DNA from: Amphibalanus amphitrite
Taxonomy: Eukaryota > Arthropoda > Thecostraca > Balanomorpha > Balanidae
Assembly (NCBI RefSeq): GCF_019059575.1
Contig: NW_024881587.1
Span: 88,501-152,500 of the forward strand
Direction: 5' to 3'
DNA length: 64,000 nt
Shown here: positions 1,486 through 63,629 of the stretch, one piece after another
Position numbering within the stretch: the first letter of the stretch is position 1
Layout: each line of letters begins with the position of its first letter
Notes under the pieces: model-generated
Databases searched by the model: none
Told to the model about the DNA's origin: nothing
What the model saw: only the letters and a program-made list of their open reading frames with translations
Made by a program: the position numbers and the translations under genes

Positions 1486-1489
1486 TTAA

Positions 1490-2523
1490 CCCTCGCCCTG
1501 GCAGGGGGGGGGTCGATGCGACCCCCCCCCTAAGGTTTTTCGAAGATAGCGTAAAAACGGCGGCGCGCAGCGCCGCCAAATTTGGCACAGCCTATGGGGC
1601 AACCTTTTTACATATGACCTGAAAATTTCAGGTCCGGGTGACCTTGGGTCAGGTCACCAGGTCAGAAAAACCGGTACAAGGTCATGGTCAAATTTCAACT
1701 TTCTTTATGCACCTGTCCAGCTCACAGTTTTGGACTGATTTCCTTCAAACTTTCAGGGTGTGCTAAGTTCACCGAGTTGTATAACATATAGTTCGGGTTT
1801 TTCGAGGTCACTGACCTGAGGTCAGTTAGAGGTCATTACGTCGTAATGTTAAGCCTATGGGAAAATACTAAATTCGGAAAATACTGGAGATATCCGCTTC
1901 GTTCTATCACTTTTGTGCTTTGAAACCACAGTGCTTAACAACAGGTCACTTGGTGCTTCTTTGTTTGGTGTACTTATCCATGGGTCAGGTCAAATGAGGT
2001 CAACTGAGGTCAAATGACGTTTTTGCCAATAACTTGGCACATAATGACGCTAGAGCTTAAAAAATGGTGTCATTGTGTTCCTGGTGATCAGCCGAATCGA
2101 ATGATATGCGATATGATGCAATTTGGTTAAGTTGAACTTAATTGATTAATTAAAGTTTACTTAAAAATTAAGAAAAACTTTAAGTACACTTAAGCAAGCT
2201 AAAAAGTATATCATTCGACGCGCCTTGACGTGCTGAGTTCACTGGTGCTTTTCTTTTTGCTCTATCTTAATTAGATCAAAAGTTATAAGCGAAAAACTTT
2301 TGACCTGTTTTTAGCGAAATTTTTACATTTATACCCCCCAAAACCCCCCTAAATATTGACCTAGAGCAACCAAATTTGCACAGGGGCGAGAACTCCGGGG
2401 GGCCCACCTACCTACCAAATTTGGTGTTTCTAGGTGCCATAGGAGCCAATCGCGAGGGGGGGGGGTCGCATCGACCCCCCCCTGCCAGGCCGTGTTATGA
2501 AAAATGCCCTGCCAGGGCGAGGG
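1490..2523 (+). mobile_element. Non-autonomous TTAA element 1 (piggyBac-like termini)
   Basis: The element is flanked by TTAA at 1486-1489 and 2524-2527 and begins CCCTCGCCC, with the inverted form at the far end. TTAA duplication with CCC-starting ends is the hallmark of the piggyBac superfamily; assigning this copy there is inference, because no transposase is encoded. The left end has the motif CTGGCAGG once, then a G-run/C-run hairpin with loop core TCGATGCGA. The right end has the same motif twice, 19 bp apart, and the same hairpin inverted. Inside the left hairpin is a GC palindrome (ggcggcgcgcagcgccgcc). The interior is rich in AGGTCA-like words. Confidence 0.75.
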
Positions 2524-2527
2524 TTAA

Positions 2528-3762
2528 ACGGCTCAAAGGCTTTTAAACGTCTCGCCTATCGGCAAGACGTTTAAAAGATTTGTTCTACCTACTCGCAATT
2601 TAATATATAGTAAAACACCAAGTCTTGCCGACGTAAGTTGCACCTCACGAACATCTCTGCTTCGAAGTCATTGAAACGAAATGCTTTCTAAACATGAGTT
2701 GCTACATAACATTGATTCTGGAATGTAATGCTGCGTATAATCTTCCGACTAATGCTGATGCACATTGCACAATGAACATATTACTTGAAGTGTAGAAGGC
2801 ATCATTTCAGTGGGTCCGAAATGAAATGTAAAGGTAAAATGAATAGCAGTGGCTGCTATAACTTATAACGCCCTGTGAAGATGTTTTCAGAGTGTCTGAA
2901 GTAAGTTTCCAGTAGGTAGGTACGATACACCTCGTATAGCTCCTTCCTTCTGTCGGGAAAATAATAATCTCGCAAATCTCTGTTATAATGACATATGCTT
3001 CTGTCTCAGATATAAGCGATTTTGGTACCGGCAATGTCAAGTACAGGGTGTGCTAAAAAAGTTGACATCTACATGAACTTTCTTGTGTCTATAACAATCT
3101 TATATTGAACCCTGAAGGCTGAAAGAAGCTCTTATTTTGTTTAAGTGCTTTGCTCAGTAGGTAAACCTTCCTTTCGGGTTATGAGACGTTTCAGGGTCGT
3201 GAATGGGGCAGGGGGCAGTGGGGTTGAGTCCGTCCACCGCCGGCTACTGCGCATCAGTGGCCGAGCCCATCCAACATGGGACGGGAGTGGTCCAGTGGGA
3301 CAAGTCCCCGAGCCTGGCCACTCAAATCACGGCCACTCCGGAGACGTATGTTTCTATTGGAAATGCCATCCACTGGCTTTCTTGTGGGGATACCGTCAAG
3401 GACCATGGATGGGTTGGTTCCGACTCCCGAGGACATAAAAGGGCAGATGGAAGGGAGATGTATGCTTCTCAATCCCAGGATACGCCAAGCCACCAAGCCT
3501 GCTGCGATATATAGTTACGTTCTGCATCAGCATTCACACAATCCTTGAAGAATAGGACGCATTTGTTCGCACGTGCAAAGCAGTGCAATTGAAAAGGGAC
3601 ACAGCAAGTGGAATGGAATATCGAAACGTAACTCTCGATTCCAACGAGAAGCGTTTGGTTTGGTTTACATTTGGCCGCGGACAAGAACAGTTAGCAAAGC
3701 ATGATTTACGGCACTCATGCGGTTCTGTGACATGTTCTGTATTTACTTTCCAAATAGTTATT
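2528..3762. other. Intergenic DNA with a single mariner-like end
   Basis: No gene is supported. At about 3043 the sequence tacagggtgtgctaaaaaag resembles one terminus of Tc1/mariner elements (compare 7044), but I find no matching partner, so at most a solo end remains. The block at 3190-3500 is open in several frames, has no splice-bounded conserved protein, and may be an old transposon fragment. Confidence 0.4.
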
Positions 3763-4627
3763 ACGAGCGAGCGAGCGCAGCGAGCGAAGTGAGTCTTTTC
3801 AATATAACGGAAAAATCTCAGTATGAACGGCCCGGCCCGGCCCGGCCCGGCCTGTAACGCTTTTGAGAGGCTTATATCTCAGCAACCGCTGGACCGATTG
3901 GCCTGCGGTCTTTTTTGTTGGGTAGCCACATCCCTTCTACCCCGTAATTGACTACTTTTGATACATCTCAGTGACCGTCGTGGCACGTGCCACGTGATAA
4001 GTCAAGGGTGTTCAAGCTGCTTTGCAAAAGTAGTGATTTTGAGAGGCTCATATCTCAGCAGCCGCTTGGGCGATTGGCTTGCGGTAATTTTTGTAGGGTA
4101 GCAGCATCCCTTCTACCAAAAATAGGATACTCCCGATGCATGTGGGTCATCCCCAGTGCACGTGCAAAATACAACAATAAGAGGTGTCAAATTTGTTCCC
4201 ATTTTAATAACTCGGTAATTATTGGGGCGATTTCGCTGAAACTTGGCAAACAGGTAGGCACCCACCAGACAATGCATTCCCATGTGTTGCGGTTAAGGTG
4301 CTACTGCACGTGCGCACGTGCATGGGGCGCTTCCAGATCTCGAGAACGGCTGGGCCGATTGCGCTCAAATTTGGTACACGGTTGGGGACCAGTTAGTGGG
4401 GTGCCGTGCAAAAGTCAGTTTGGACCCCGTTTGCACGTGCGCACGTGCAGAATGCCGCTTCCAGATCTCAGAAACGGCTGGGCCGATTGCGTTCAAATTT
4501 GGTACACTGCTAGCGACCGGTTAGAAGGGTGCTTTGCACAAGCCCGTTGGAAGTACCCTCTCGCCCTTCTGCACGTGCAGGGCTCACTATGTCGCTCGCT
4601 CGTTCTTCGCCCAAAAGGCGTTTTACT
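3763..4627 (+). mobile_element. E-box-rich repeat element, copy A
   Basis: This is the inverted partner of 18071..18970 (copy B). Ends are acgagcgagcgag on the left and cgctcgctcgt near the right, a short inverted terminus. After the left end come four GGCCC units, then about five degenerate units of roughly 120 bp. Each unit has an atctcagnaacggctggnccgatt core, a feature I see in all unit copies, and a CACGTG palindrome. The 16-bp perfect palindrome GCACGTGCGCACGTGC occurs at 4306-4321 and 4433-4448. A 215-residue reading frame crosses the unit array; it is conserved in copy B only as far as the DNA is, so I do not call it a gene. Confidence 0.65.
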
Positions 4628-4696
4628 TGTATGATAGCAATGATAACGTGGTGCGTCATGCTCAGCAGTCAGCACACCACAGACATACCACAGAGT

Positions 4697-4719
4697 CTCT
4701 CTCTCCCTCTCTTTCTCCC

Positions 4720-4818
<99 letters not shown>

Positions 4819-5055
4819 ATCTCTCTCTCCCTCTCGCACTCTCTCCCTCTCTTTCTATCCTCTCTCTCTTTCTCCTTCTCCTTCTCTTTCTCTTTCTCTT
4901 TCTCTTTCTCTTTCTCTTTCTCTTTCTCTTTCTCTTTCTCTTTCTCTTTCTCTTTCTCTTTCTCTTTCTCTTTCTCTTTCTCTTTCTCTTTCTCTTTCTC
5001 TTTCTCTTTCTCTTTCTCTTTCTCTTTCTCTTTCTCTTTCTCTTTCTCTTTCTCT

Positions 5056-5119
<64 letters not shown>

Positions 5120-5132
5120 CTCGCTCTCGCTC
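4697..5132 (+). repeat. 430-bp polypyrimidine microsatellite: (CT)n, (TTTCTC)n, (TC)n
   Basis: The block begins with about 80 bp of pure CT. After a short mixed segment with rare purines it continues as a near-perfect hexamer array of TTTCTC (about 4870-5065), then returns to TC and ends in a few CTCTCG units. Any open frame here is a by-product of the repeat. It directly follows the right end of copy A. Confidence 0.95.
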
Positions 5133-5566
5133 TTGGTATATTATAAATTTAAAGTGCTCATTTGTCATGGCATCAAACTGTCCCATCGGAGACAAAGATG
5201 CTTCACGATTACATCATCCTCGCTGCTAATCACATGTGGCCAACACGTCTCACCTGACAAATTGGTACCCGGATAAATAGAGAGTGAAAAGCGACTGAAC
5301 CATCCTAATGCCGAGTATTTATAGCCGAGCTGCAACACCCCTGACAGACTCGATTTTGTCGCTGCATGCCACAGTCCAAAACCAGTCGCAGTCCGCAGAT
5401 GTAGGTGACTGACGAATGGCGAGGCCGACAGACGGCGCAGCGGACGCGGTGGTGTTGTCGTTTTGACTATACGTAACGTACTATGTAGATACGGGCTAGG
5501 TCGTGAGCATAAGCTCCTTTGGGAATTTGTCTCGTGAAAAGCGAATGACTTTTCACGTACCTATGA

Positions 5567-5862
5567 TATGAATGATGATAGGGCGGGCGATTTTTAGGCG
5601 TTCTCGGTTGGCGGTTAGCGGGCGTGCGATGCGGGCGGTTTTATTGTTTTGCGGCGTTTTTGCGTTTTTTTATTTGCGGTTTGCGGCGGGCGGGCGTTTC
5701 TTTATCTTTTGCGAACTTTGCGTTGGCGTTTCGGGCGTGCGTTTTGCGCGTTTTGCGGTGTTTGCGTTTTGCGGTGGGCGGGCGTTTTTCACAATTCAAA
5801 GTGCAAACCTTCGGGCCACAGCGCTCCTCGAAAAGCGCTGCCCTCGAGTATGAATGATGATA
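5567..5862 (+). mobile_element. 268-bp G/T-rich insert flanked by 14-bp direct repeats
   Basis: Identical copies of tatgaatgatgata lie at 5567-5580 and 5849-5862. Between them, about 200 bp is almost devoid of A and of C outside CpG (gcgggcg, gcggttt and tttgcg words), followed by a more balanced tail that includes agcgctcctcgaaaagcgct. A target-site duplication around a retroposed or transposed insert is the natural reading. The flanks are themselves made of gatatga-like words, so a chance match is possible. Confidence 0.4.
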
Positions 5863-6088
5863 TGATATGAATTACGATATGACCGTATGATATGATACGA
5901 TTCATATGACGTAATTCTGGCCTGGGTTTTTATCCCTATCGCTTTCTCTATTCACTGCTGTATCCAAGGGGTGGGCCGTGGGTTATTTTGGGCATTTGAC
6001 CCTTGCAAAAGCACCTGTAACTGACGAAACCGCATCGTGTTCTTTGCATGAAAAGAAAACTCAACAATTTTCATGGAATAGAGATGTT
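5863..6088. other. Short non-coding stretch
   Basis: gatatga-type short repeats are followed by unremarkable sequence up to the TTAA at 6089. No coding or RNA feature is visible. Confidence 0.4.
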
Positions 6089-6348
6089 TTAACCCTCGCC
6101 CGTATGCGACGTTTTTCAGCGTCTAATGATTTAGGAGGGGGGGGGGGGGATCAGTTGGACCTCCTGCCGTTCGGCCCCTGATCGAGCTAAAGCTTCTCGA
6201 AAAAAAAACGTGCGTGCAGCCCGTGACAAGAGGAAGCCGATGCTACTCAATTTTAAGGTCCGAGGTCATTGGGTCAGGTCATTTGGGTCAGGGTCATGAA
6301 ATCTTCAGGGTAGGTGTAAAATTGATAAACTTGAGGGTACTACTTTAA

Positions 6349-8917
6349 CCCGCGCATGACTGGGGTATTTTCCATAATGCGAGTGACTGAGGGGAGGGGA
6401 GGGGGCTCTACAGAGAGTCCCCTCTCCTATCACCGAAACTACTGGGCCGATCGTCAAAATTCAAATAACGTCTGATAGCCCTGGAAAAACTGTTGAATGA
6501 AAGCTAATCTTGTTGACCTCAAGGACACCGATGACCTCACAGGTCAGGTTAAAGTAAAAATTACCAGCATTTTGGCTTGTTCACAATTTAGGCTCTGGCC
6601 GCCGGCTAACAAGTCCGATCAGGATCATTTTTGGTTTATGCACTCCATGGTATATGCCTTAGAAACCCTGAGGACATCGATCTTGTTCTTTGAATTTTTC
6701 AGGTCAACGCCAGGTCATCCTAGGTCACGAAAATTTTATATCAAGTATCGGTCACGTGACGCATGTTTTGTGGTCCATTTCACTCATAGATTTCGAAAAC
6801 AGAGTTATTTGAGGTTATTTTCAGCTGCATTTAGCTGAGGTCAGGTCACTTTCAGGTCAACAAAGGTCAAATTTTGAAAATGAAATTTTCCAGAAGAAGG
6901 GTGTCTATCAGATGCAGTTCGAGTTCAGCTAAATCAGCAACACAAGGGCGCCATTTATATTACTGTACTACGATGTCAAAACGTACTGAAAATGGATTTG
7001 AAAAAATTAGAATCGTGAAATTTTGACTATAATGATTAATGCGTACAGGGTGTCTCAAAAGTTCGTTCACACATTTCCCATGCCAATAAAGCATATAAGA
7101 ACCGGCCAAAAGTATAAGGTTTTGGTGTCTGTGTGTACACTAGACAAATATGCATGCTTTGACAACTGATTAAGAAGGTTGGAAACCAACCCCTTTGCTG
7201 TATCTCCAAAAATATTTGCCCATACCGATTTTTGTTGCTCCGTCAGCTGCCGGAGGCTGATAAAAGGTTACCAGCTTTCAAGCTCCTGCAGGGGAATCCC
7301 CTGCAGTTTCTGCGTCGGATTTAGTTTTGACTAGCTCCCCGGCAACATCTGATTTTCCCTGAAAGCCGACAGCTTGCATCGACACCATTCTTGAGTATTT
7401 TGTAGGCATTCTCTGGCGCTAACTCCTTCATGAATGACTGGCGCCGACATCCCAAGCGCCATTTTCCTTTTCAAAACGACCCCAGTCCTGAACAAACGGG
7501 AAGTACCAGGAGTAAATTTTTCGCATCATATGGTAGCAGAATGTGTCGGACGTCTGTTTCTCAGACACATTGTGCAAATTTTGCAAATTCCAAGCGCTCG
7601 TCATTCCCCATGCCAAGACCTTCGCTCGGTTGCGGAGTGTTTTCCTCGGGAGATGTTCTGCTTTGTAAACGGCCCAAACCTGTCCATCGTGTGGTTTTAT
7701 CGGGATTTTGTGTTTAAAAGAAAATTATTCGCTGCAGATCTGCCTCTTGAAACTTCGTTAGATGAAATTTTACAATAACTGACACTTTTGGAGGGTCAGG
7801 TGTCCTTGGCATTGACGATTTTTGTGTTATTGTCCCAAAAAATTAGCGTTATAGATATTATAAACAATTTTAAATTATAATATGTCTTTATTTTACGATG
7901 ACCTGCACTTTTTGAAAATGGGTAACCTCTGTCTGTGACCCTCTTGCCAGTTTTCAATAGTTATGACCGCATTTTCAGCTGCTTTCCGAAACACGAGTCT
8001 GCTGTCGTGCGAGGGTCGTTCAAAACGCCGTTAGTCTCGCATGGTTTCGTCCTTCAAAAATTTTAGCCACCGTTTTTATGAGATGATCATCATGTTGCAC
8101 TCATCCTCGCCGACACTTAGCCATGTGTCATTTCCGACTTAACCATTCCCATTACTCCTGAAACAGAGAGTTTCACAACATACCCGACTTTGCAACCTAC
8201 ATTTTCGTGCCTGACCCATGGTCTGAGGTGAACCCTTTTTGTGAGCTCATGAAGGGTCGAATGCACTTGAAAACAATATCGCTGCTTGAGGAAGGTTGTC
8301 ACCAATTCCCATGCAAAATTTCGACTGTTAATTTCCTGTTGATTCAGAATTATTGACAAAAAAGCATGGCTGGTACCTGTAAACGAACTTTTGAGACACC
8401 CTGTACAACTCAGCCATTTTTGAAGATATTTCGCTACAACTCTGTAGAGTAGTTCATCGGTGACTATTACTGTAACATATATTCTGTTTTTTTCCGAAGA
8501 ATAAAAATAAATGATTTTTTTAAATCAAAAATATATTATTTTGTAATTGCATGTGTATTTTTTCTGAAATGTTCAAAATTTTGAACATCCGAGACAGCAA
8601 TTTGATAACCACGTGTATTTTCAGTCTACTCGTGCAATTTGTAAATAAATCGGATCTACCTTAAAAACTGAGCTCTTGAGAGCGATTACCGTAGTTCAAT
8701 GTTTTGCATCAAAATCGGCCGACATAACGTCACTCTGACGTCATTTTCGGCCGATCTATGGTAGTTAGGAACTTGTAATTTGATAAAAAGGTGTCAAATT
8801 GATGCCACTGAAGGTACTGCAAGTTTCGTGTTGCTACGTCAAGCGATGTAGAAGTCAGAAGATACCTATTGCAGAAAAACGGGAGGGGGCTCTATAGAGC
8901 TCCTAGTCATGCGCAGG
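6349..8917 (+). mobile_element. Inner TTAA element inserted in the outer one
   Basis: TTAA at 6345-6348 precedes CCCGCGCATGACTGGGG. The opposite end is the inverse, CCTGCGCATGACTAGG, followed by a decayed taaa. The left end carries the variable motif (TGACTg) twice, 17 bp apart, and a hairpin core CTCTACAGAG; the right end has it once with CTCTATAGAG. Joining the sequence outside this block restores the continuity seen in the related element at 10685..11547, which supports insertion. A Tc1/mariner-like element sits inside at 7044..8405. Confidence 0.65.
7044..8405 (+). mobile_element. Tc1/mariner-like element with perfect 24-bp terminal inverted repeats
   Basis: The first 24 bases (starting tacagggtgtctcaaaag) recur exactly as the reverse complement at 8382-8405, including TA at each edge as expected for TA target duplication. 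The 1.36-kb length fits the superfamily. Short open frames of up to 114 residues are present, but I recognise no helix-turn-helix or DDE/D transposase motif, so it is probably non-autonomous or heavily decayed. The identical ends suggest a relatively young insertion compared with its hosts. Confidence 0.75.
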
Positions 8918-9007
8918 TAAAGCTTCGTTGCGATGGATTGCTTTTTGCGCGAGTCGCAAAAACCGAGGGGGGGGGTCCATCCGACCCTTTACAAGTGCGA
9001 GGGTAAA

Positions 9008-9540: not shown

Positions 9541-9600
<60 letters not shown>

Positions 9601-9672
9601 GAGGGGGGAGGGAGACGGACGGACGGACGGACGGACGGGACAGATGCAGACAGACAGACAGACAGAGAGGAG
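9541..9672 (+). repeat. (GA)n microsatellite followed by (GGAC)n and (CAGA)n
   Basis: About 55 bp of pure GA is followed by G-rich sequence, then tandem GGAC units and CAGA units. This block explains the long leucine/serine-rich reading frames on the opposite strand, which are not genes. Confidence 0.9.
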
Positions 9673-10684: not shown

Positions 10685-11547
10685 CCCTCGCTGGTTTTTC
10701 GCGAATAACTCGCGTAAAAAGCGGCCGATCGCGACGAAACTTTCAGTACCCTCACATTGATCAATTTTACACCTACCCTGAAAATTTCATGACCCTGACC
10801 CAAATGACCTTTGACCTGTGACCTCTTTTCCGAGACCATGTTTGGCCGGAATCGCGATTCTGCGTATGTCGGCTCGCATTAGCCGCGCGTTTGCAAGCTT
10901 TTCGTGGTTTCAAACGTTCAAACATGTGATTTGATGTTGCTTCCATGCATTAGGGTGGGTGTCAAGGTCACCTGAAGGTCAGGTCAGGTCATTGACCTTT
11001 TGGTGACCTCGGGTGACCTCGGTTCACTTTTTCGAGCTGTACATGTTTCTAGGCTAGTTTTTGGAGCTGAATTCGAATTTAGCAACCATTTGAACATTTA
11101 CGAAGTAGTTTTGGTGCCTTATCAACATGTTACGAAGCTGTCAGAGGCGGTTGACACGTACTACGAATACCCGTCACGATGCCTACTGGTTGACCTGACC
11201 TGACCTGACCCGACCTGGTCTAAATGCTTAAAGACATCATCTGTGATCAAAACTAACACGATATTCGTGATCAGCACCCCGAAAACCCCTTAGCAGCCAC
11301 ACTTTACGACTTTCTAACAGGACCCGATTTTCCCGACTTTGGGTCATTGACCTGACCTGGAAGGTCACCCAATGACCTAGGACCTTAAAATTGGGTATCA
11401 TCGGCTTCCTCTCGTCACGGGCAACACGCTCGTTTTTTCCGCGAAGCTCTAGCTCGATCAGGGGCCAAACGGCAAGGGGGGGCGGGGGGGTCCAACCGAC
11501 CCCCCCCCACACATTAGAAGCTGGCAAACGCCGCACACATGCGAGGG
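10685..11547 (-). mobile_element. TTAA element, uninterrupted relative of the nested one
   Basis: Flanked by TTAA at 10681-10684 and 11548-11551. One end is CCCTCGCTGGTTTTTCGC and the other, inverted, is CCCTCGCATGTGTG. The right end shows the doubled motif ATGTGTG with a 19-bp spacer, a G-run and the hairpin core GGGTCGGTTGGACCC. The left end lacks the G-run hairpin, which looks like a small deletion. The interior includes the tgacctgacctgacctgacc array at about 11192-11212. It matches 6093..9003, 12979..13505 and 36390..37035 over much of its length. No transposase is encoded. Confidence 0.7.
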
Positions 11548-12978: not shown

Positions 12979-13505
12979 CACTCGCCTGTGTGCGGTGTTT
13001 TACAGCGTCTAACGTGCGTGTGTGTGTGTGTGGAGGGGGGTCGGTTGGACCCCTCCCCTGCCGTTCGGCACCTGATCGAGCTAGAGCTTCGCGGAAAAGA
13101 CGAGCGTGTTGCCCGTGACGATAGGAAGCCGATGATACCCAATTATAAGGTCCTAGGTCATTGATTGAACTTTCAGGCCAGGTCAATGACCCAAAAGTCG
13201 GGAAAATCGGGACCTGCTAGATCTTCGTAAAGTGAAACTGTTATGGTTTTGTTTTCGGGGCGCTGACCATGAATTTCATGTTTGTTTTTATCGCAGATAA
13301 TGTCTTCACGCATTTAGGCCAGATCGGGTCAGGTCGGGTCAACCAGTAGGCGTCCTACCGCCTATCCATAGTACCTAGGTGTCAACCAATAACCACTACT
13401 GAAAGCCTCGTAACATGTTACGAAGGCACTAAAACTATTTTGTTAATGCTCAAATGGTTGCTAAATTCGAAATCAGCTAAAAAAAAAAAAAAACTAGGCT
13501 AGAAA
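12979..13505 (+). mobile_element. Truncated TTAA element (double-motif end plus interior)
   Basis: TTAA at 12975-12978 is followed by cactcgcctgtgtgcggtg, a TG-expanded motif, and the ggtcggttggacccc hairpin, then by the gatcgagctagagcttcgcgg block. It corresponds to the right end of 10685..11547 read inversely and continues into the conserved ccagtaggcgtcctaccg and cctcgtaacatgttacgaa segments. The other end is missing; the match stops near an A-run at 13483-13495. Confidence 0.6.
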
Positions 13506-13739
13506 CATGTGCAGTGCAGTGCAAAGGGTGCAGTGGCGCCACCGCCAGGCGCCGGCGCGGCGGTGGCGGCCCCGGTAGCGGTTGCGCTTTATAATTTTTC
13601 GCCTCCGCAACTCGCAACTCCGCAACTTTTTTGGGCACGGTAGCCGATCCGTAACTCGGCTACCAAGAGGGTAGTCCGCAAGTTGCGGAGTTGCGGAGTT
13701 GCGGACCTAAGTTGCGCAATGCCCAGCTCTGCTACTTGC

Positions 13740-36389: not shown

Positions 36390-37035
36390 TCGAAAAATGC
36401 TGTAACTTTGTAAAGTGAGGTTGGAGGTTTTTGGGGTGCTAATCACGAATTTCAAGCTAGTTTTGATCAAGGATGATGTTTTCATGCTAGGCCGGGTCAG
36501 GTCAGGCCCGACCAGTAGGTGTCTTGCCGGCTATCCATAGAAGGTAGGCGTCGATTACCTTTGACGGCTTCGTATAGCATGTTCCGTTAGGCACCAAAAC
36601 TACTTAAATCTTCAAATGGGTGTTAAGTTCGAAATAAGCTCCAAGCACTTATCTAAAAAAATCGTATAACTTGAAAAAGTCAACTAAGGTCATCTAAGGT
36701 AAATGACCTTGATTTGACCTTAACGTCACCTTAAAATGCAAAGAACAAACAGCATTTCATGCCTTGGAGAGTTAACAACCACAGCAAGACTGAAAACGCG
36801 CCGATAATGTGCGCTGATAAGCGCCAAATCGATACCAGCCTGACATGGTCTGGTGAAACAGGTCACAGGTCAAATTTTTTTAAGGTCAAGGTCATGAAAT
36901 TTTAAGTGTGTGAGTAACATTGATCAAATCGAATGTATAGAAAGTTTCGTCGTGATCCGCCACGTTTTGCTTGAGTTAGTATGCGAAAAGTCGAGGACAG
37001 AAGTCTGTGCGACCCCCTCCCCCTTTAAGTGCAAG
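36390..37035 (+). mobile_element. Decayed, truncated TTAA element
   Basis: It aligns with 13200..13440 and with 10685..11547 read inversely: the gccgggtcaggtcaggcccg segment, ccagtaggtgtcttgccggc, the gtaacatg-like and gcaccaaaac segments, then ggtcatgaaattttaag and gtttcgtcgtgatccgcc near the end. The far terminus (ccccctccccctttaagtgc) is mutated and TTAA is not clear. Confidence 0.5.
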
Positions 37036-43829: not shown

Positions 43830-44729
43830 CCCTCGCCCGCACATGGGGGGGGGGGGTTGCCACCCCCCAGGTAGTCTTTCTGCTCTGCACTCAACATTTT
43901 TAGAGCTAGAAAGCTGATTTTTCGTATAGCTGCTCGTCTATCCTTTCTTGATGTTCGCTGAAAATTTCAAGTTTCTATGATTTTTGGTTTCGGAGATATG
44001 ACCTTGTTTTTCAGGTCATGTCATGGCCCAAATGGCCTATTCTCAACATCTTGCGTTTGCCATGGGCCTTGTGAGCTTTTGACACCCTGATTTCGGCCTT
44101 TTTTGCCAGTCTTACCTCCCACCTATCATGGAACATGTTGTTCGACGATGTACAGGGGTCAAGGTCAGGGTCAAGGTCAACCTAGGTCATCTAAGATAAT
44201 TGCGTTTTAGGCAAGCTGAATTTACTTTTTGTGAAGTTTTTTGGTTGCATTTTTGGTAAAAGCTTCTCAGATCATGATTTCATGTAATATGGACCCAAAA
44301 CCAATCGGTGCACACATCAGTATACACACAGACACACACAGACATACAAACACATATAATTGACCTTGACCTAACTTGACCTGAAATGACCTCAGCGGCA
44401 AAATTCTGGTCGGGTAGTGTGACAAAGAGGTTCTAGCTGGCTTAGCACCAGAAAACAGCATCGTCATCGGTATTTGATAAGCAGCGCACTTGATATCCAG
44501 CGGTGACCCAAAACAGCAACATTTTTTAGTTTGACCTGACCTGGAAGGTCAATGACTGACCTGAGAAAGTAAAACTGGGTATCATTGGATTCGTCTCTTC
44601 CCAAAGAATCTTTTTGGTCTTTACCGCTAAGCTCTATCTCCAACAGGAACGAAATGGCGCGGGGGGGGGGTGGCAACCACCCCCTCCATGTGCGTTCTAG
44701 GATGGGAAAATGGCATGTGCGGGCGAGGG
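43830..44729 (-). mobile_element. Non-autonomous TTAA element
   Basis: TTAA at 43826-43829 and 44730-44733 flanks ends reading CCCTCGCCCGCACATG on both strands. The left end has one motif (GCACATG), a G12 run and the core GTTGCCAC. The right end has the motif twice with a 20-bp spacer and the inverse core GTGGCAAC. The interior includes gggtcaaggtcagggtcaag (about 44156-44176) and a (CA)n-like tract. No transposase is encoded. Confidence 0.8.
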
Positions 44730-48519: not shown

Positions 48520-51500
48520 CTGCCGCCGGCGGAACGAGGTGGCCATTAGACAGAGCCGGGTACAGAGTCTACAGAGTACAGAGTACAGAGTACAGAGTAC
48601 AGAGTACAGAGACAGAGTCTGTATTAATGGCAGACTCACATACGTCAGTATTAAGTTTGTCAGTCATGCATTTTTACAGTCTTTAGTTAAAAATTTCTTA
48701 GTGATAAGAACCGCTTGCTAGATTATACACACAGCACGAGGTACCACGAGGCGGAGCAGGCAAACAACTGGCAAAGGACAGTCCTGGCGCAAGTGAGCAG
48801 CCCCGCCCCTCCGCCGATACACGCATTCTATCTCCATTCCCTCTCTCCCCGTCCTTCCACTACTCTCCCCCATCCTCTGACTAGGCTTCCCCCAGCCTGT
48901 ATCATCGTGTCAGCAGAGCCGCCCCGGCCTCACCTGATGCGGCAGTCGGCCAGCCGGCCGGCCAGCAGGTCGGCGTGCACCATCTGTACGAGGTGCGAGT
49001 CGAGCCGCGTGGCGCCCTCTGACTCCAGCTGGCGGCCGGGACCGGCGGCGGGCGCGGCGGACCCGTCGCCGCCGGCGGCCGGCCGCTCGCGTACGGACAC
49101 GTAGCTGTAGTGCTGGCCGTGGAAGGACGGGATCGAGCGGTAGCTGCGCAGCATCGTCTCCAGCTCCAGCAGGCCGGCCCCGGTCACGTGGTTCTGCGGG
49201 GGAGGAGATAGCGGTGTTATTGTGATGCTGGTACGCGATAAAGCTCTGGTGGAAGCCGGAAGGCAATCAAGTTAGCCTTGACGAGGACCTGTTTATCCCT
49301 TGGCATCCCGTTGTATGTAATTCTGAAGTTCTGAACATAAAAAACAAGTCTAACATGAGCGGTGCAGCATCGTTCTAGAAATGTGTGTTGTCTCCTGCGC
49401 ATTCAGAGACTGATCTGGAATCACAAAGCTATCGACATGCGGCCTCTAGCATTCGCTGTCACGCTCACACAGCTGTCATCACACATCCTCCGGTCGGCTC
49501 CGACGGCCGCTATCTGCGACTCACCAGGTGCTGCACGGTACCGCGCAGGGCGGCGCCGCGCGGCGGCTCCAGCAGCACGTGACAGCGCAGTTTACCGATG
49601 GCGTGTGTGTAGAGCAGCGCCGCGACGAGCGGCTCGTCGGCCGGCAGCTGCGGAGTGCCGCCGTCCGGCAGCTGCGCCGCCAGCTGGCGCGGCCGCCAGC
49701 TCAGCTCCTCGCCGTCGCTGTAGAAGCGGCGTCCGACGGGCCGGCCGCGCGGCGAGCCGGCCGGCCGCGAGCTCTCGGAGAAGTAGCCGGCCGGCGCGCC
49801 GCGCACCGGTCGCCAGGGGGGACCGCGAGCCGACGGCGAGGGCGGCGGCGCGACGCCGGCCGGCTCTGCGACCGCCAGCCGCGGCGTGTACAGCCGGTTG
49901 GAGCGGGGGATACCGAAGCTGTATGGGTTGGCCGAGACGGCCGTGAACGCCGGCTGGTTGTCCGGCAGCGACGCCTGCAGCTTGCGCACCTCGTCGCGGT
50001 AGAGGTCCGGCTGGCGGCGCTTCAGGTAGGCCAGGTTGGAGAACGGCTCTGGCACGTCCAGCTCGGTGAGGCTGCGGCGCGGCCGGCGGCTGGCGCGCGA
50101 CCGCCGCCGCAGCTGGCGCACCGGAATCTCGTCGAGCGCCGGCGGCGGCGGCGGCTCGGCGCGCGCGCACTCGGCCGACAGCGCCTGCAGCGCCAGCGCG
50201 CTGATCCGGTGCCGCACGGCCGCCGGAGACTCGGACTCCATCGGGTCCGGCTCGGCGGGCCCGGACGGCGCGGCGGCCTCCGGCGAGCCCGCCGGCACCG
50301 GCCGTTTGTCCGGCGACTGTCGCCGGCGGCGGCGGCGGCGCCGGACCGCGTCCGGCCGGTTCTCCTTCCCCGGCCTGGCGTCGGCGCCGCCCTCCTGCGC
50401 TGAGCTGGTGACGGAGGCGGCGCCGCTGCCCCCGCCGGTCCCCTCTGTAGCCTCGTCAATGGCCACGAGCGGCGGTAGGTCGGAGGGCGAGGAGGAGGGC
50501 GGAAACTGTGGGCAAACGCACACAGGTGTCGGCGAGGGTAGAGCGAGCGTGACCCAGGGGAGTAGCTCGGTAGTGTTAATGTGAAGCTACATCAGCATAG
50601 ACTCAAGGGAAACAATGTACGTGACGTGGGCCTATCCCTCTCAACATATATCATAATCGAGTAACGTCGCACAGTTATTATTAGAGGAATTAGTGGCAAT
50701 TCCCTAGCGTTGATAACCATGAAGCGTCACAAGGAAAACCGTGAAAACAAACCTCTTATTCTAAGTACTTATGTACGTGTGACTACCACCCAACTATCAG
50801 CCCACCATTATCAGCCCACTGCTAGTGCTATCCACCTCTGACTAAACAAACGGCGGACACCGCGTCCACACCGCGACCCATTTCGGCCGGCGATGCCACC
50901 CACCTCCTCGGATTGGACCCAGCGTTTCTCGGCGCCCGCCCTCAGCCCCGTGGCCAGCGCGCCGCCCAGGTGCACCCGCGCCAGCAGCGTGCCGGGCGGC
51001 ATCACAAAGTCCACGTCGGCCAGGTCAAAGGCGTCCTGGAACCGGCACAGACACCGAATCGTTACATGCTATTCGATTTCGAGATAAGAACAGGTTAGAC
51101 GGACAATTGACGGTACGTTCAGTGAATGAGACGGACAGCCTGCAGCTGACCTAAATCTTACAGACTATTGTTTACAACGAGTTTGAGCTACTATCTAATC
51201 TAAGAGACCGGTTATCCGAGCTGTAACCTATATGAGTAGCGCGGTTCGTGCGGTCGCCACCCTTTGAGTGGTTCTTCCTTACCCCTGGCAGCCGGTGAAT
51301 GTGGACGAGAGCCTCGAGCACCTCCTCGATGTCGTCATTCGAAACAACCCTGCAGCAGATACATCAATATCAAATAAGGACGTTAATCGCCTAACGTCTT
51401 CAGCAAACATGATCGTGTGAAACATGTCGGCTTAACCCTCGCCCCGTTGGGGGGGCCATTTTGGCCCCCCCCCCCCCTGTGGTTTTTCCTGAATAGCAGG

Positions 51501-54315
51501 AAAACGGCGGCGCGCAGCGCCGCCAAATTTTCAGCACCTTCCCGGGCATCAATTTGACACCTTCACACCAAATTTCAAGTCTTAGGTCACCTTAGGTCAG
51601 GAGTTATTGAGGTCAAACTGAGGTCATGTTCGAGCAAAAATGAGCAAAAAACATGCAATCTTGAAACGCTCACCAAATCTACAGTTATCAAGCAAATTTA
51701 AAGTTCTTTATATGGTCTAGTAGACAAAAAGCGGCGCTACAAAACTGCTATCTCGGATTTTCAAAATTTTTGGTTTTTGACCAAAAAAATTCAAAAAACT
51801 GATTTTTTTTTAGAAAAACTCGAAAAAATCCAAAATTTTTCCGAATTTCGAAAAAAACCGGAATATATGTGATAGTCCCAGCGCTCTTCTATATACATAC
51901 CAAATTTCAGATCGATATCTCGTTTTTTGGCCAAGTTATAGCGAAAAAAACTGTTCAAAAATGATGACGTCAAATTTTTGAACTCAATTTTTTTTTGCGA
52001 TTCTAGACCACGTACGGCAAAACAAAGACCACCATTGAACTCCCCGTGACGAGCTGCATCGATTCGGTACCCATTTTATGCAAAAATATCAACTTTGAAT
52101 TTGGACCTAATTTGACCTGACCTTGACCTGACCTTGACCTGATTTTGACCAAAACGTGACCTATGCTGGCCCCAAAGGCTGCCTCACCCACATAATCGCA
52201 TTTGTCATGTAAAATGGACCATAAAACATGTATCACACGACACTTTCATATTGTGACCCCTCCGTGACCTGACCTCTGTGACCTGACCTGGTATCAGTGA
52301 CCTCAAATAGCAAAATATGTGTTTGAAGAACATTTCCCCATCGATGATTTTCAATGAAATGCATTTTACTCGATTTTACAACGCATTTCTTGAAATGCTT
52401 GTAAACGGTGAAAATTGGACCTTTGACCTGACCTGTGACGTCATCGGTTTGACCTAGGTCAATAAAATTGGGTCACAAGGTAGTTCCCCGTTGGGGCTAT
52501 CCAACGCCGTTTACCGCTTGTCGCTATGTTGCGTGGTTCTCGAGATCTTAGGGGGGGGGGCCAAAATGGCCCCCCCTCCCAACCGGGCGCGTTGCTCGGC
52601 AGAGCCCAACGGGGCGCGGGTTAAAGTGCACTACAAGTGGACATAACAAGTAAATAAGCCAAAACATCACACGCATGAGATAAATCATGCAGTCGGTTCG
52701 CCCCCATCATTCCGGGTACCGGGCAGTGGAGAGTTGCTTACTTGGCGTCCCAGCAGAGGGTGCAGCTCAGCACCCCCGGCAGCCGCAGCGCCGCGCTCTG
52801 AACGTCAGACAACTGCTGCGCTATGAAGTCGTCCTTCTGAGAACGGACAGCGCGCGGAGGCACGACTGAGACACGGCGCGCCGAACTACCACCACACGGT
52901 GCACACACACAGACACACGGGCAAACAGACACACGGAGCGGGCAGAACGGCAGCCGACGGCTACGGCAGGCGTACAATCAGGCTCTGACATATCAGACGA
53001 GGATCAACTGGTGGACGAAAGACAACATCAACGAGACGGTCTATATGATTATGGACCGATACTGAATGCAGCCAACTGATCTAACATTGACCAGCACCAT
53101 GCATTAATTTAATCATTGGAAATAATTCGCACTGCGTGAAAACCTAGTGACAAGAAGAACGTCATTGAGCGCAAGCAAATAAGTACGTTGAACCAGCCCA
53201 TTATTTCGCCACCATGCTTATCTAGCTAAATCTACACAAAACCTTATTCTGAATGTGAAGTTGTTTGTTTCAGCTGACCTATGAAAGCCACCAGATGCTC
53301 CATTTAGATACCAACGTACAATGCTTCTCAGTCCTCACCGGTGATTCTCGGGCGCCCGACACCGCTGCCTTACCCATCGTACTACCGTCGGGGGGGGGGG
53401 GGGGGGAGTTGGGCGCCCGGACTACAGTGGTCATCGGCGGTACTACCGTCGTGCCGCCACCCACCTGGGCCCAGTCGAGTCGCGGCACCACGTCCAGGAC
53501 GCGCTCGAGCGGCGGCTGGCCGCCGGCGGCCGCCAGCAGCGGGCCCAGCGTGCGCGCCAGCCGGCGGCGCAGCACGCCGCGGTCGCCGCCGGCCGCCGCC
53601 AGCAGCGCCGACAGGCTGCCGTGCAGCAGCCGCAGCGCCTGCCGCGTGCGCGTCAGCTGCGCGCGCGTCACGTACGGCTCGTCCTCGCCCGAGGTGTGCA
53701 TCACCTGAGACAGAGAGCAGAGACACTGGGTTAGGGGTGTGCATCACCTGAGACAGAGAGCGGAAGGATCAGCTGAAGAGGCACTCGCTGTGGAACGTTC
53801 GGTGCGACAGTGTATTCAGCGTGAGCTAAACTGGTAGAGATAAAATATCTAGTAGGTAAAGGAACACATAAGACACCCAATGAGAATTATTTAACGCACC
53901 GATCCAGAGCGAGTCATATTTCAGTTGTTCAGCTGTCCTTGCATTCACAGCTTATCAAGAGGGAAGGCACATAACATTTATTTGAAAGCCTGTTTCCAGC
54001 ACCTTGACTCCTCCATATCCGAGTGCTTACCCAGACAAAGTTGCTTTCTCTGTGCAGGACAAACTGGCCGTGCCGGAGGCGGATCAGCCGCGGGAAGGTG
54101 GCCATGTCCTTCTCAGTGAAGAAGGCGGTGCCCATCAGCTGGCAGACGAGGTGGAGCGCCGCGCTGTCCACGATGGCCGCGCCGTCCGCGTCCACCTCGC
54201 CGGAGAGATCCTGCACCACGTCGCCGCCGCCGCCGCCGCAGCGCAGGAAACAGATGGCCTCGGCCGGGTCGTCCTCCTCGCGCGTGCAGCACGTCGTGTC
54301 GTAGATGAACATCAT
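48348..54315 (-). CDS. HPS4: HPS4-like subunit of BLOC-3, gene span
   Basis: Eight coding exons (54315..54031, 53704..53465, 52836..52742, 51349..51283, 51035..50904, 50505..49525, 49193..48934, 48519..48348) join with matching phases to 743 residues, close to vertebrate HPS4 (about 700). HPS4 and HPS1 form BLOC-3, the exchange factor for Rab32/38 that acts in making lysosome-related organelles. Family landmarks: an N-terminal MMFIYDTTC strand, LCGQLMG-like VCQLMGTAFF, FVLHRESNFVWV, LSCTLCWDAK, a long P/R/S-rich linker (about 290-520), AALLYTHAIGKLRCHVLLEP, HGQHYSYV and the C-terminal STETYYQQ...KRLSKNHGLML. Human HPS4 has the same pattern, ending QETYFQQ...KQKLLKHGVNLL. The extreme N-terminus is uncertain. 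Confidence 0.88.
48560..48615 (+). repeat. (ACAGAGT)n heptamer repeat in the last HPS4 intron
   Basis: About six tandem copies of acagagt. On the gene strand this is (ACTCTGT)n and sits about 40-95 bp upstream of the last exon's acceptor, contributing to its pyrimidine-rich region. Confidence 0.85.
48934..49193 (-). CDS. HPS4: HPS4 coding exon 7
   Basis: Acceptor cccccgcag, donor gtgagg. It encodes NHVTGAGLLELETMLRSYRS, FHGQHYSYVSV, a Gly/Ala-rich insert and HLVQMVHADLLAGRLADCRI. This corresponds to the human HPS4 segment from SLASLNGLEVHLKET through the VSLMHSEF region. Confidence 0.85.
49525..50505 (-). CDS. HPS4: HPS4 coding exon 6 (long linker)
   Basis: A 981-bp exon with acceptor gtttgcccacag and donor gtgagt, phase 0 both sides. 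Most of it is low-complexity P, S, R, A and G, likely disordered. Toward the end it becomes folded-like: LTELDVPEPFSNLAYLKRRQ, PYSFGIPRSNRLYTPRL and ADEPLVAALLYTHAIGKLRC. The other two minus frames and the plus frames are also open over hundreds of codons because of the extreme GC content, so frame choice rests on the conserved segments. Confidence 0.85.
50904..51035 (-). CDS. HPS4: HPS4 coding exon 5
   Basis: Acceptor tgccggttccag, donor gtgggt, 44 codons, phase 0 on both sides. It encodes DAFDLADVDFVMPPGTLLAR, VHLGGALATG and ends KRWVQSEE before the long linker exon. Confidence 0.8.
51283..51349 (-). CDS. HPS4: HPS4 coding exon 4
   Basis: A 67-bp exon with acceptor tgctgctgcag and donor gtaagg. 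It encodes VVSNDDIEEVLEALVHIHRL then PG. Phase 2 in, phase 0 out, matching exons 3 and 5. It continues the second longin-like strand and helix. Confidence 0.8.
51436..52620 (-). mobile_element. TTAA element inside an HPS4 intron
   Basis: TTAA at 51432-51435 and 52621-52624. The left end CCCTCGCCCCGTTGGG has the motif once plus a hairpin GGCCATTTTGGCC. The right end carries GTTGGG twice with a 19-bp spacer and the same hairpin inverted. Just inside the left hairpin is ggcggcgcgcagcgccgcc. The interior contains tgaccttgacctgaccttga (from about 52120). It lies between HPS4 exons 3 and 4, in the intron 51350..52741. No coding capacity. Confidence 0.8.
52742..52836 (-). CDS. HPS4: HPS4 coding exon 3
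   Basis: Acceptor gttctcag, donor gtaagc. It encodes KDDFIAQQLSDVQSAALRLP then GVLSCTLCWDA, the strand equivalent to the HILAGCILYKG part of human HPS4. It ends in phase 2. Confidence 0.85.
53465..53704 (-). CDS. HPS4: HPS4 coding exon 2
   Basis: Acceptor ctctctgtctcag, donor gtgggt, 80 codons, phase 0 both sides. It encodes VMHTSGEDEPYVTRAQLTRT and an Ala/Arg/Leu-rich helical region ending VPRLDWAQ, corresponding to the helices after the first longin-type strands. A second, nearly identical acceptor lies 43 bp upstream. Confidence 0.85.
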
Positions 54316-58424: not shown

Positions 58425-58489
58425 GGCTGATACAGCCTTTGCTCCCGAGTGTAGCCCACGATGCAGCTCCACAGGCTGACCGGATGCGG

Positions 58490-59390: not shown

Positions 59391-60718
59391 GATCCAGTTA
59401 AGCATCCAAGAGCTCAGTAGCCGTCAGCGCCATATGAATGGAGTGCCATCCCACTCCATCCTTCTTCTCATTTTCAATTTCATCCCACCGCCACCGGTGG
59501 TGGAACAGAAAGACTATGAGTGGCATGCACCAGCACTTATCCGTGGACATCCAACAGCTCTGTGTAAGCCATTACATTGTTGGGCATAGCCACTGTTGGG
59601 CTCTTGCTATTATTACAGCGGATTTCAAGGAACCTTTTCGAGAAGTGCAATAAGTGCTCGACCATTGGCGGGTCGGTGAGCCGTGTGACGCGGGAAAGCA
59701 TGTACTCTCTAGCACATCTTTTTCGAGTGCCCTTTCTTCATGGGTGACTGATTGGGGGAAAAACGGCACCTCTTCCACCCGAACAAGTACCCAACAGCTC
59801 GTCCCGGGATTGGGCGGTTCAACAGTGAGCCAGTTTTCTCGAAATAAAAAATCGCACAGCTAATTGATAAAGCGTCCGCGAGTGAATCCTGCATTGTTGT
59901 TAGCTCTTTTGTTTGCTTTGCTGTTTGTCATGTAAAAATGCTACATCGTGCAGCTGACCGATGAGTGGGTATGTACAGTCACCAGCAGTTGCTACCCATC
60001 ACCCTCGGACGGCGGGGGAGCAAGCTACCACCGCCCCTGCGAGACTAGCGCCGCCATGCGCCAAGAAGTGGAAACACCACGTGACTGAGGCCACGTGAGG
60101 GCACGGTCACGTGATGGAGGGGCGGAGCATAGTAGCTTTTGCGCCCGACACTAACTGAAATGCGGCGCTGTGATTGGGCGCCTTAGCATGAATGAAGCCC
60201 CGGCGCCAGAATCAGCCGTTCGCCTTATATGGAAAGTGAGCCTTTGCGTTTCACTGTTCTGTATTGGTTTGAGAGCCACGGCACCATACGAATTGTGAGC
60301 CCCTTTGAACGGGTCACCACCCGAGGCACTGGGTCGACGGCTGTGCCGGGCAAAGTCTAGCCTGGTGGGAGAGGTGGGCCAGGGAAAGTGCGATCGAGCA
60401 GCCACTGGGACGTGGATTGGTATTATCCAACCGCGACAAACGATGTCAGCAGCCTCTTCTCGTGTATATGACACGAAAAGCTAGACAGACAACGTGGGCA
60501 GTGTCCAGTCAAAAGCTACTAAACGATCCAGTTAAGAAGTTGGCGAGCTTGGCGAGGTAGCCAGACCAAATAAAAAGTTTTTTATTCGATTTTGGTTGAC
60601 AAATGACATACAAGCCCGCTGTGATGGACCAAAAAAGGAGCTGAACAGTTCATACAACTTATAAAAAGCTCAACGGTTTAAAAATTCAAAAGTTAAATGT
60701 TAAAATTCGGCCTGCATG
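59391..60718. other. Intergenic DNA, no gene recognised
   Basis: Short open frames only. The block at 60300-60480 has mixed composition without a domain. Confidence 0.4.
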
Positions 60719-60722
60719 TTAA

Positions 60723-61897
60723 CCCGCGCGGGGCTGGGGGGGGTAAATTTTACCCCCCTCGCGAATTTTTGCGATATCTCAAAAACGGCGGCGCGCAGCG
60801 CCGCCAAACTTTCAGTACCTTTTCTTACATCAATTTGACACGTTCCCTGAAAATTTGAGCGAAATCCGTCGGAAAATTTTTGAGAAATTGACGTTTTAGT
60901 GACGTCATGTTCGTCATTTTCGCCTCAAAAACGGCAAAAGTTCAAACGCCGCTAACATCTTCATTTTTAAAGGAATCAAGACGTAACAAAAAAGGTTATA
61001 CGTAATTTTACTTTGTCTATCAAATGGCTATCTCGGTTTTTTGAAAATTTTGGATTTTGGCCTATTTTTTTCAAAAAACTGACTTTTTTGGAAAATCATT
61101 ATAAAATCCAAAATTTTGAGTCTATCGAAAAAACCGGAATATATGTCAGAGACGTGGTCTATGTGCACCTACATACCAAATTTTAGAAGAATCGGTTCAA
61201 AAATGTGGGAGTTATTCAAAATTTTATGACGTCACGACACACACAATTTTTGAAAAATGACTTTTTTGGAAGTTCTAGACCTCGTACGGAAACAAAAATA
61301 GCACCATTCGATTCGCCGTGAAAAACTGCATCAGATAGACACCTTTTTAGGCCTTAACAACCAACTTCAAAATTTGACCTCACTTGACCTGACCTTGACC
61401 TGACCTCGACCTGAAATTCATCCAGAGGTGGTCCATATCACTTATTGAGTGTGCCTATTGAATTCTATGAGTAAAATGACCCATAAAACATGTGTCGCAC
61501 ATGCCCTTTCCTATATTTTGTTTTTTGGTGACCTGACCTGACCTGACCTGACCTTGACCTTGACCTCTGAATGATATTGTATGCAACGAATATTGTCTTG
61601 GTAGCCTAAGAACACGTTTTGGGCGATCAGTCTCAGTCCATGACTCCATTCTTCGGCAACTACGGTGCAAGGCCGATACTGTAGAAACTTGCAATTTGTA
61701 CCCTTGACCTGACCTTGACCTTGACCTCAAACTTTAAATTAAGTACATGTTTGTAGTAGTTCGTGATGAGAGCTTTCGATTGGCGTTTGAATTTTCCAAA
61801 TCGGACCGTTAGTTCGGGAGATAACAGGGGGGGGGGGTAAAATTTACCCCCCCCCCCAGCCCCGCGCGTTCGGCTGGAGACCCCAGCCCCGCGCGGG
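60723..61897 (+). mobile_element. Non-autonomous TTAA element, best-preserved architecture
   Basis: TTAA at 60719-60722 and 61898-61901. The left end CCCGCGCGGGGCTGGGG is followed by a G-run and the palindrome GGTAAATTTTACC. The right end shows GGGCTGGGG twice with an 18-bp spacer and the same palindrome inverted. Inside the left hairpin lie aatatctc-like sequence and ggcggcgcgcagcgccgcc. The interior contains tgacctgacctgacctgacc (61528 onward). It is inserted in sequence that matches the right half of another TTAA element (61902-62153). Confidence 0.8.
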
Positions 61898-61901
61898 TTA
61901 A

Positions 61902-62153
61902 CTGACTGTAACGCATTCCTTAGACTAAATCGGTGAAAAAATGCGACCTTTGACCTGACTTGTGGCGTCATGGGTTGCACCTAGGTCAACGAAACCTGGT
62001 AACAAGGTAGTTCCGTGGTGGGGCTATCGAACGCTCTTTGAATGTTCAAAATCGGTCGGTAACTTTCCGAGATCTCAAGTGGAAGGTGAAACGGCTGCAC
62101 CACCCGATCAGGTGGTAGGGTCCGCCTATTAATAGCCCAAGGGGGCGCGGATT
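61902..62153 (+). mobile_element. Flanking half of an older TTAA element
   Basis: This aligns with 52370-52560, the right part of the HPS4-intron element: gcgacctttgacctgact, ctaggtcaacgaaa, aacaaggtagttcc, ggggctatcgaacgc and agatctcaag. It ends with a decayed gggggcgcgg-attatt terminus. Its left half should lie beyond 60723, where similarity is faint. Confidence 0.5.
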
Positions 62154-62707
62154 ATTTATTCACTCATACAGTGTCATTTATTTTGAGAACACCTTTCTCA
62201 CGCCATGACAGGCTCCTCTCGTAATAGAACGAGATGAGGAGAGTGTTTTCACGCCTCCTTATGCACGGCTCTAAGTGTCATTGAGCTATCAACTGTCAGC
62301 GGTTTTCGGACAATGAAGTTCTTTCTTAGTCCTTACTGAATCCAATTTTATTTCAAACGATTGTCACTGTGCTAGTTTTCTTCTTATACGTTTTTGAAAA
62401 AGCGCTGAAGAAGTCTTTGATAGACGAAACCGGTCCGCTTATTCTTTTTCTAATTGTTTTTTGAATATATTCGTAGACTACCGGCTCTTTACTACAAAAT
62501 TTGAGAATGTTTGGTATTACTTTGACCCGAACGATGTGCAGCTGAATTTTCCCTCTTGAATGATTATGGACAGCTCGCGAAATTAACTTCAACCTAAACT
62601 ACGACAAGCAGAAGAAAATCCGATACAAGCCTACCTCAATCCTCTCACCTTATTCAACCGTTGAAACGTTAAAGGCATTAATTCAGTCCGAGTCGCTATG
62701 TCGACCA
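62154..62707. other. Spacer without recognised gene
   Basis: AT-rich, with no supported feature. Confidence 0.4.
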
Positions 62708-63625
62708 CCCGCGCCGTGCTGGGGGGAGGGGCGTTTTTACGCCCTTCCCCCTCAGGTTTTTCGCGAATATCTCAAAAACGGCGACGCGACGCGTAGCGTC
62801 ATTCAAGGTCAGGTCACCAGGTAACGTCAAGTGACCTTACCTCAGAAAAAAATTCGAAAGCTCGCTGTAGCTACACCGACTGAGCGATCACTTTAAAACT
62901 CTCAGTAATTGCTTAGAGTAACAGTATGTATAAAATGGATACCTCGGATTTTTTATGTCTGTGGCCTAAGGTCAGGTCAATTTTGCGACTGCTCCATTAG
63001 GTATTAAGTCAATGGGAGAAAATTGAAATGCGCCTCTTTTGAACGAATTTCGTTCTACACCCTCTCAAACATCAGTCCATAGGTAAACATGACACACTGA
63101 ATCGGAAAATTGCACCTGTGACCCCTGTGTGTGCCCCTGATGTCATTTTAGGACATAAAAGGTCTTCAACAGTTTTTTTTTTTTTACTTTTGACAGAGAC
63201 GTGCTAGAGCGGTGAAAACACCGTTGATCTGAGGTCAAATTTGAGGTCAATCAGAGCGGTGCCCTCTGGGGGCTAATCCGTTGATCTGAGGTCAAATTTG
63301 AGAACATGGCGGCGAAAGAGCGTTAAAAGAGCTATCGAATGCGCTTTTCCGCGGCGCTGTAGCTCTATTGGTTCCCGAGTTAGCCGTCGGGTGTTCAAAA
63401 TCGTTGAAATCAACAAAATTTGACCTTTGATGAACCCTGGTGACCTTACCTTTGCCCTGACCTTAAAATGACCGATTGTTTTCCTCCTTATTTTTGACGC
63501 TCTTTCGATTGCCGCTTACCGCGTGTCGCTACGTGGCCCAGGAGCTGAGTCAGACGGAGGGGCGTGAAACGCCCCCCCCCCCCCCAGCACTCGACGGAAA
63601 ATTCATGCCACCAACACGGCGCGGG
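62708..63625 (+). mobile_element. Non-autonomous TTAA element with mutated left target site
   Basis: The right end is followed by TTAA at 63626-63629; the left flank reads ccac instead. The left end CCGCGCCGTGCTGGGG carries GTGCTGG once and the hairpin core GCGTTTTTACGC. The right end carries GTGTTGG and GTGCTGG with a 20-bp spacer and GCGTGAAACGC. The ttttcgcgaatatctcaaaaacggcg block follows the left hairpin. No coding capacity. Confidence 0.7.
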
Positions 63626-63629
63626 TTAA

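Follow-up and report, generated by a model that had tools for sequence, protein, structure and literature searches.

How can the two ends of a transposable element carry the same short motif when neighbouring elements of the same build carry another? The question is raised by a stretch of 64,000 nucleotides from Amphibalanus amphitrite (assembly GCF_019059575.1, contig NW_024881587.1, positions 88,501 to 152,500), here called the window, in which a preliminary description had picked out seven TTAA elements whose motif, termed X, and hairpin loop were held to be constant within each element and different between elements, as a matched end code. All seven are present where they had been placed. 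In this study we conclude that they are very probably non-autonomous transposons of the piggyBac superfamily, shaped by transposase pairing together with exchange between ends and bodies.

Results

End architecture and matching of the codes

The assembly searched comprises 807,550,619 bases in 2,644 contigs (a genome of about 808 Mb). Ends were studied in detail in a sample of 268,064 bases, consisting of the window and 22 stretches of contig C1 that were picked around listed matches, so that the sample is enriched in ends. The elements have a tip, X and a palindrome at one end, and a tip, X, a spacer, X again and a palindrome at the other. The 77 strict ends of the sample were joined to their neighbours by adjacency alone, X being ignored, which gave 23 pairs and left 31 ends unpaired. 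Both ends could be typed in 21 of these pairs, and each of the 21 joins a single-X to a double-X end, which bears out the architecture first described; the two untyped pairs are the window element at 10685..11547, which has indeed lost its left X and hairpin as had been claimed, and a C1 locus, L079, where the ends belong to two nested elements. The step from X to X, searched over offsets of 23-32, measures 26-28 bp in all 15 families, namely 14 families of miniature inverted-repeat transposable elements (MITEs) and an autonomous element presented below. Since the spacer between the two X copies also varies by family, variation affects a whole block and is not confined to X and the loop.

A chance origin of these ends was ruled out by shuffles and control patterns. 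The window contains 13 matches to TTAACCCKCGC, where shuffled sequences average 0.08. Twelve of them mark junctions of the seven elements, which leaves two of the 14 junctions not intact (TAAA at 8918 and ACCA before 62708); the thirteenth, at 6089, is part of an older element. Genome-wide, the pattern TTAACCCKCGCN{2,12}GGGGG, which also picks up some double-X ends, has 23,039 forward matches (controls 1 and 3), and the double-X end pattern has 16,206 (controls 0 and 0). The reverse counts, 92,408 and 52,973 respectively, are presumed to be inflated by overlapping matches within C runs.

The two ends of an element match far beyond expectation. With one element for each of 15 families, identity between the left X and the outer right X is 0.905 within elements and 0.375 between families, that between the left X and the inner right X is 0.914 and 0.536, and that between left and right loops is 0.772 and 0.420; none of 100,000 permutations reached the observed matching of X or of the loop. 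Family G was represented in this test by copy L082 2602-3483, which replaced the window copy with its missing left X. An apparent two-code element, L079_2664, was rejected and excluded from the 15-family result, as blastn shows it to be a family C element nested in a B-like one: the C element, shortened to its positions 1-248 and 686-1001, occupies 811-1375 of the B-like element (L079 3474-4038). Repeating the test with L079 added (16 rows) gave the same outcome.

The end code is family-specific and not, as had been thought, specific to the single element: X and loop recur across many copies of a family, and in family B the left X shows no difference in 147 comparisons. Constancy within elements is not always exact either. 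The element at 62708..63625 has CGTGCTG and CGTGTTG, and that at 6349..8917 has ATGACTA and ATGACTG as well as one tip reading CCTGCGC.

Pairing by position was examined on the first 100 places listed for each pattern, restricted to contigs found in both lists. Among these listed matches, a G-code right end lies at 884-917 bp (about 895 bp), in element orientation, from 66 of 81 G-code left ends, and near none of the 73 E-code and 59 F-code left ends; a wrong-orientation control of the G-code pairing gave 0. An E-code right end is listed near 37 of 72 E-code left ends, 2 of 79 G-code and 0 of 53 F-code ones. Inside right ends, which hold two X copies, matched codes were counted 1,920 times for G-G and 1,758 times for E-E, and a search for crossed codes found none in either order (E then G, or G then E).

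Several single ends deserve mention in their own right. A double-X end near 3393 of L099, in reverse orientation, has the tip CCCGGCA and not CCCKCGC, which makes the range of tips wider than in the motif used earlier. At L096 5383-5406 only two facing tips remain, within 24 bp between two TTAA, as if an element had been almost wholly lost. The family B loop TGTTTGAACA is found with a different X, CCAAGTGTG, at L092 982; X and loop can thus change separately. The G and C runs of the hairpin vary in length among family B copies, perhaps through slippage.

Autonomous element and related transposases

The preliminary description had suggested a search for an autonomous relative with a piggyBac transposase, and such an element was found. 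There are at least 116 piggyBac transposase matches in the genome by PF13843. At C44:1061854-1062912 a DDE_Tnp_1_7 match of 238.5 bits belongs to an autonomous element of 3,967 bp that has a double-X right end and, in the adjoining stretch, a single-X left end. Among solved structures its transposase is nearest to piggyBac of Trichoplusia ni (T. ni; 6x67, E 1.2e-73) and more distant from piggyBat (E 7.3e-31). In the alignment with 6x67 aspartates correspond in three conserved blocks, which we take to be the DDD motif. A further copy, on C527, has the same ends as C44, and in two others one end was seen (the left on C42, the right on C171). The autonomous element has an X and a loop of its own; in the two copies whose ends were both read, the left X is ACGCCTA and the right X ACGACCA.

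Relatives of the C44 transposase are numerous, the nearest being 50-65% identical. One of them, on C702, is 53 and 63% identical to it in two fragments, and a right-end hairpin lies beside it. The inner X of this hairpin, ACGTATAGG, is that of F-family right ends, and its loop, TCCGTTTGA, is one base away from theirs, TCCGTTGGA. Over the 144-165 bp next to the C702 hairpin, identity to copies of E, F and G amounts to 84-92%. C702 has a second transposase of the C44 clade, adjacent to a right-end hairpin whose code is nearly that of family F. Around other transposase loci, several have CCCATTA- or CCCAG-type ends about the gene, and some have no end within the stretch read.

Two side observations concern this group. 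Two autonomous-type left ends stand back to back on one TTAA at about 73-160 of L116, and residues 590-667 of the C44-type transposase are matched in a separate frame in several copies (L111 and L116-L118).

Codes and bodies of families E, F and G

Three families, E, F and G, have a common interior. The majority letters of this interior, rough because each family contributes 2-6 decayed copies, differ at 17 of 730 columns (E-G), 21 of 690 (E-F) and 28 of 714 (F-G), i.e. 2-4%. At code positions the same pairs differ at 25 of 39, 20 of 40 and 14 of 40, i.e. 35-64%; the right loop of F was borrowed here from other F copies, the check on the F representative itself having returned False. For the three pairs the contrast between code and interior gives Fisher p values of 4.6e-26, 3.6e-17 and 2.4e-9 with positions treated as independent, which is untrue if blocks moved whole. 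Genome-wide, the subterminal sequence CTCGCGTAAAAAGCG lies at the expected distance after a CCCTCGC tip in 4,718 copies, and 85% of these left ends carry one of three codes (E in 1,361, G in 1,669 and F in 992).

The end blocks of family E are of a different lineage from its body. The left block is closest to family A (z 8.3) and the autonomous element (6.7), with G at 3.0; the right block is closest to the autonomous element (8.5), followed by H (6.9) and A (6.6), and G scores 1.6. In the 100 bp beside these blocks the best match is G on both sides, with z of 16.4 (left) and 18.2 (right). Judged from sequence, family E looks like ends of the A/autonomous type set on a G-type body. A single-copy discordance, in which L088_912 is nearer to the window copy of family G (window_10685) than to L083_505, was not used because that copy has the shortest branch (quartet sites 5, 3 and 0).

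Elements and other features of the window

The family A element occupies 1490..2523 on the forward strand, with X CCTGGCA and loop TCGATGCGA; its single-X end lies at 1490-1530 and its double-X end at 2456-2523. The family M element (6349..8917, reverse strand; loop of the CTCTATAGAG type) has its double-X end at 6349 and its single-X end at 8880-8917. It stands as an element, to which we add that it is nested: at a TTAA it interrupts an older, decayed element of F/G type (6093..9003, reverse strand), whose double-X end is at 6093 and single-X end at about 8960-9003, and whose X motifs match poorly. The family G element (10685..11547, forward; X ATGTGT, loop TCGGTTGGA) has its double-X end at 11484-11547 and a left end reduced to the tip. 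The remaining four, all on the forward strand, belong to family H (43830..44729; X CCGCACA, loop of the TTGCCA type), family L (51436..52620; X CCCGTTG, loop CCATTTTGG), family I (60723..61897; X GGGGCTG, loop TAAATTTTA) and family Q (62708..63625; loop of the GCGTTTTTACGC type, left TTAA absent). A decayed G-type fragment with a recognisable double-X end alongside lies at 13062..13510 on the reverse strand. The elements measure 0.86-1.2 kb, with one of 2.6 kb, which is above the usual MITE size of less than 500 bp; their copy number is high.

A tblastn search with nine piggyBac transposases of the same genome against the window and the 22 stretches gave no match at E 0.01, a distant or unrelated coding remnant being still possible. 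Pfam gave no match at E 0.1 for 10 open reading frames of the window, and an Rfam search of the window gave none. A scan of viral contigs yielded 70 candidate stretches. Elsewhere in the window there are a decayed fragment with about 70% identity to the E/G interior (36410-36989) and a long tandem array of TCTCTC (4696-5133).

Discussion

We propose that X and the palindrome of each family are putative binding sites of one transposase. By analogy with the structures of T. ni piggyBac and piggyBat, X would be read by the transposase core and the palindrome by a dimer of C-terminal cysteine-rich domains (CRDs), and the second X may provide an extra dimer site at one end. Only elements with both ends recognised by the same transposase would be paired, cut and amplified, and such selection for co-recognition would leave ends that match. 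Several related transposases with different recognition sequences in the genome would then produce MITE families, each assigned to its own enzyme and having its own matched code. As the E end blocks are of a different lineage from the E body, bodies and matched end pairs appear to have been exchanged in at least this case, most simply through gene conversion or a double exchange between homologous interiors. Elements with unmatched ends would not spread, so that the visible products of exchange would all carry one code at both ends. More broadly, and tentatively, MITE bodies may switch transposase by swapping interiors among matched end pairs; with at least 15 codes and paralogous piggyBac transposases, several enzymes could in succession have multiplied a near-identical body to thousands of copies.

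Three other explanations have to be weighed. The first, which we regard as possible though rather doubtful, is fast co-evolution without exchange, in which the five binding-site places change stepwise with the transposase and the body is merely slower. The F and G codes are related (14 of 40 positions differ, and inner X differs at 2 of 7), and copies with intermediate ends exist in the window at 6093 and 13062, as this would have it. Against it, E and G differ at most code positions and at few interior ones, the blocks at both ends of E look like those of family A and of the autonomous element and not like those of G, and 85% of the left ends that share a single subterminal sequence carry one or other of three discrete codes. 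The F/G intermediates mean that gradual change also occurs and that not all code change is exchange.

Ordinary family divergence, in which X and loop would keep pace with the rest of the element and the families would simply be old, is improbable. The preliminary description had named this as the outcome that would undo the code, and half of it is indeed seen: copies do form families by whole-element similarity, and X is nearly constant inside them, as in family B. The other half fails, as in E, F and G the code changes at a rate different from that of the rest of the element, to judge by the Fisher values above. Least probable of the three is end-to-end homogenisation, by which gene conversion between the inverted ends of an element would keep both alike: the two ends are highly identical in most elements, but some families hold constant differences between them (in family D the outer right X is CGGACCT in 4 of 4 right ends read, with CGGCCGA at the inner right X and left ends; in family E the loop is TTGATGCAA on the left and TTGGTACGA on the right; the autonomous element differs in its two X in both fully read copies), and the left and right subterminal regions are unlike, so that conversion would need to be confined to the recognition blocks. 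Of the two origins first offered for a matched end code, pairing by a transposase thus gains from the autonomous element and from the second transposase near an F-like hairpin, and homogenisation loses by the fixed differences between ends.

Several observations weigh against transposase pairing with exchange. With exact patterns, an E-code right end is listed for just 37 of the 72 left ends of that code. The two G-code left ends with an E-code right end have it at 1,066 and 1,278 bp; the former is consistent with a G element inserted into an E element, whose left end lies 734 bp upstream, and the latter is unexplained. The two X of the autonomous element are similar, not identical, its left tip is CCCTAGA where CCCKCGC would be expected, and its exact X was found in none of the MITE families read. 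Among the 16 transposase loci read first, one has such ends inside the stretch, and at C702 the evidence consists of the inner X and hairpin of one end. To these are added the rough interior letters of E, F and G and the kinship of the F and G codes with their intermediates. Finally, the length of the G run differs among copies of one family (the left palindrome centre is at 27-33 in family B), so that the distance from X to the palindrome is less fixed than in T. ni piggyBac.

The results bear on how non-autonomous elements gain a new mobilising enzyme. Nearly identical bodies under different matched end pairs suggest a way for these parasites to change enzyme. In this one genome there are at least 15 natural recognition codes; three of them occur on thousands of near-identical bodies, and close to two codes lie at least two transposases that are related to each other. 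This makes it possible to test whether the piggyBac core and CRD read X and palindrome, and gives a natural set of ends for work on transposase specificity.

Comparison with known systems

The assignment to the piggyBac superfamily accords with the TTAA target site duplication, seen at the intact junctions and at the nested insertion, and with a DDE_Tnp_1_7 transposase inside an autonomous relative with the same end layout. As to a CC[C/T]T-type terminus, the autonomous element and those families whose tip is CCCTCGC have CCCT; families with the tip CCCGCGC have CCCG and depart from it at the fourth base. The Kolobok superfamily was rejected, as it needs 5'-RR..YY-3' termini and the tips here are CCC.

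The statement that no such code had been described proved too strong, given the asymmetry of T. ni piggyBac and the divergent terminal inverted repeats (TIRs) of coral MITEs. Already known are the end layout, divergent TIRs on a conserved interior (corals) and chimeras of TIR and interior (Galileo). In a partial open-access literature search we found no work joining divergent matched ends, swapped interiors and many codes for piggyBac MITEs in one genome.

Of the T. ni piggyBac ends LE35 and RE63, the right one carries 17 bp of inserted sequence and a second copy of the motif (PMC7351741), and a palindromic internal repeat common to both ends is bound by the CRD (PMC7351741; PDB 6x67/6x68). 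The elements here are alike in TTAA, in the CCC tip and in having motif plus palindrome at one end against motif, spacer, motif and palindrome at the other; the X step of T. ni piggyBac, by our own subtraction of 35 from 63, is 28, against 26-28 bp here. They are unlike it in their palindrome arms, which consist of long runs of G and of C that vary in length, and in the many codes that stand side by side in one genome; no transposase was detected in the window elements.

The coral CMITEs, as far as the accessible text goes, are piggyBac-like TTAA MITEs whose interiors are more conserved between families than their TIRs, and one family has its TIR in common with an autonomous element (PMC2872659). 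They differ in being about 100 bp long, in six families, with about 1,600 copies estimated in one species; that text describes no double-motif end, and the TIRs of families IV-VI match each other poorly (PMC2872659). Some Galileo copies of Drosophila mojavensis combine the interior of one subfamily with TIRs that both come from another, which has been attributed to exchange at two breakpoints within the element (PMC3573991). Galileo belongs to the P superfamily, with TIRs averaging 668 bp and 170 copies studied (PMC3573991), whereas here the blocks are short and the copies number thousands.

In piggyBat of Myotis lucifugus, the excerpted account gives motif and palindrome as read by the core domain and the CRD (PMC11707139). 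Its palindrome is unrelated to that of piggyBac (PMC11707139), so codes differ between transposases. It has three motif-palindrome units on the left and, in the same account, no clear palindrome on the right (PMC11707139). Asymmetric ends of the piggyBac type are thus not general in the superfamily, piggyBat being different, and they are present here.

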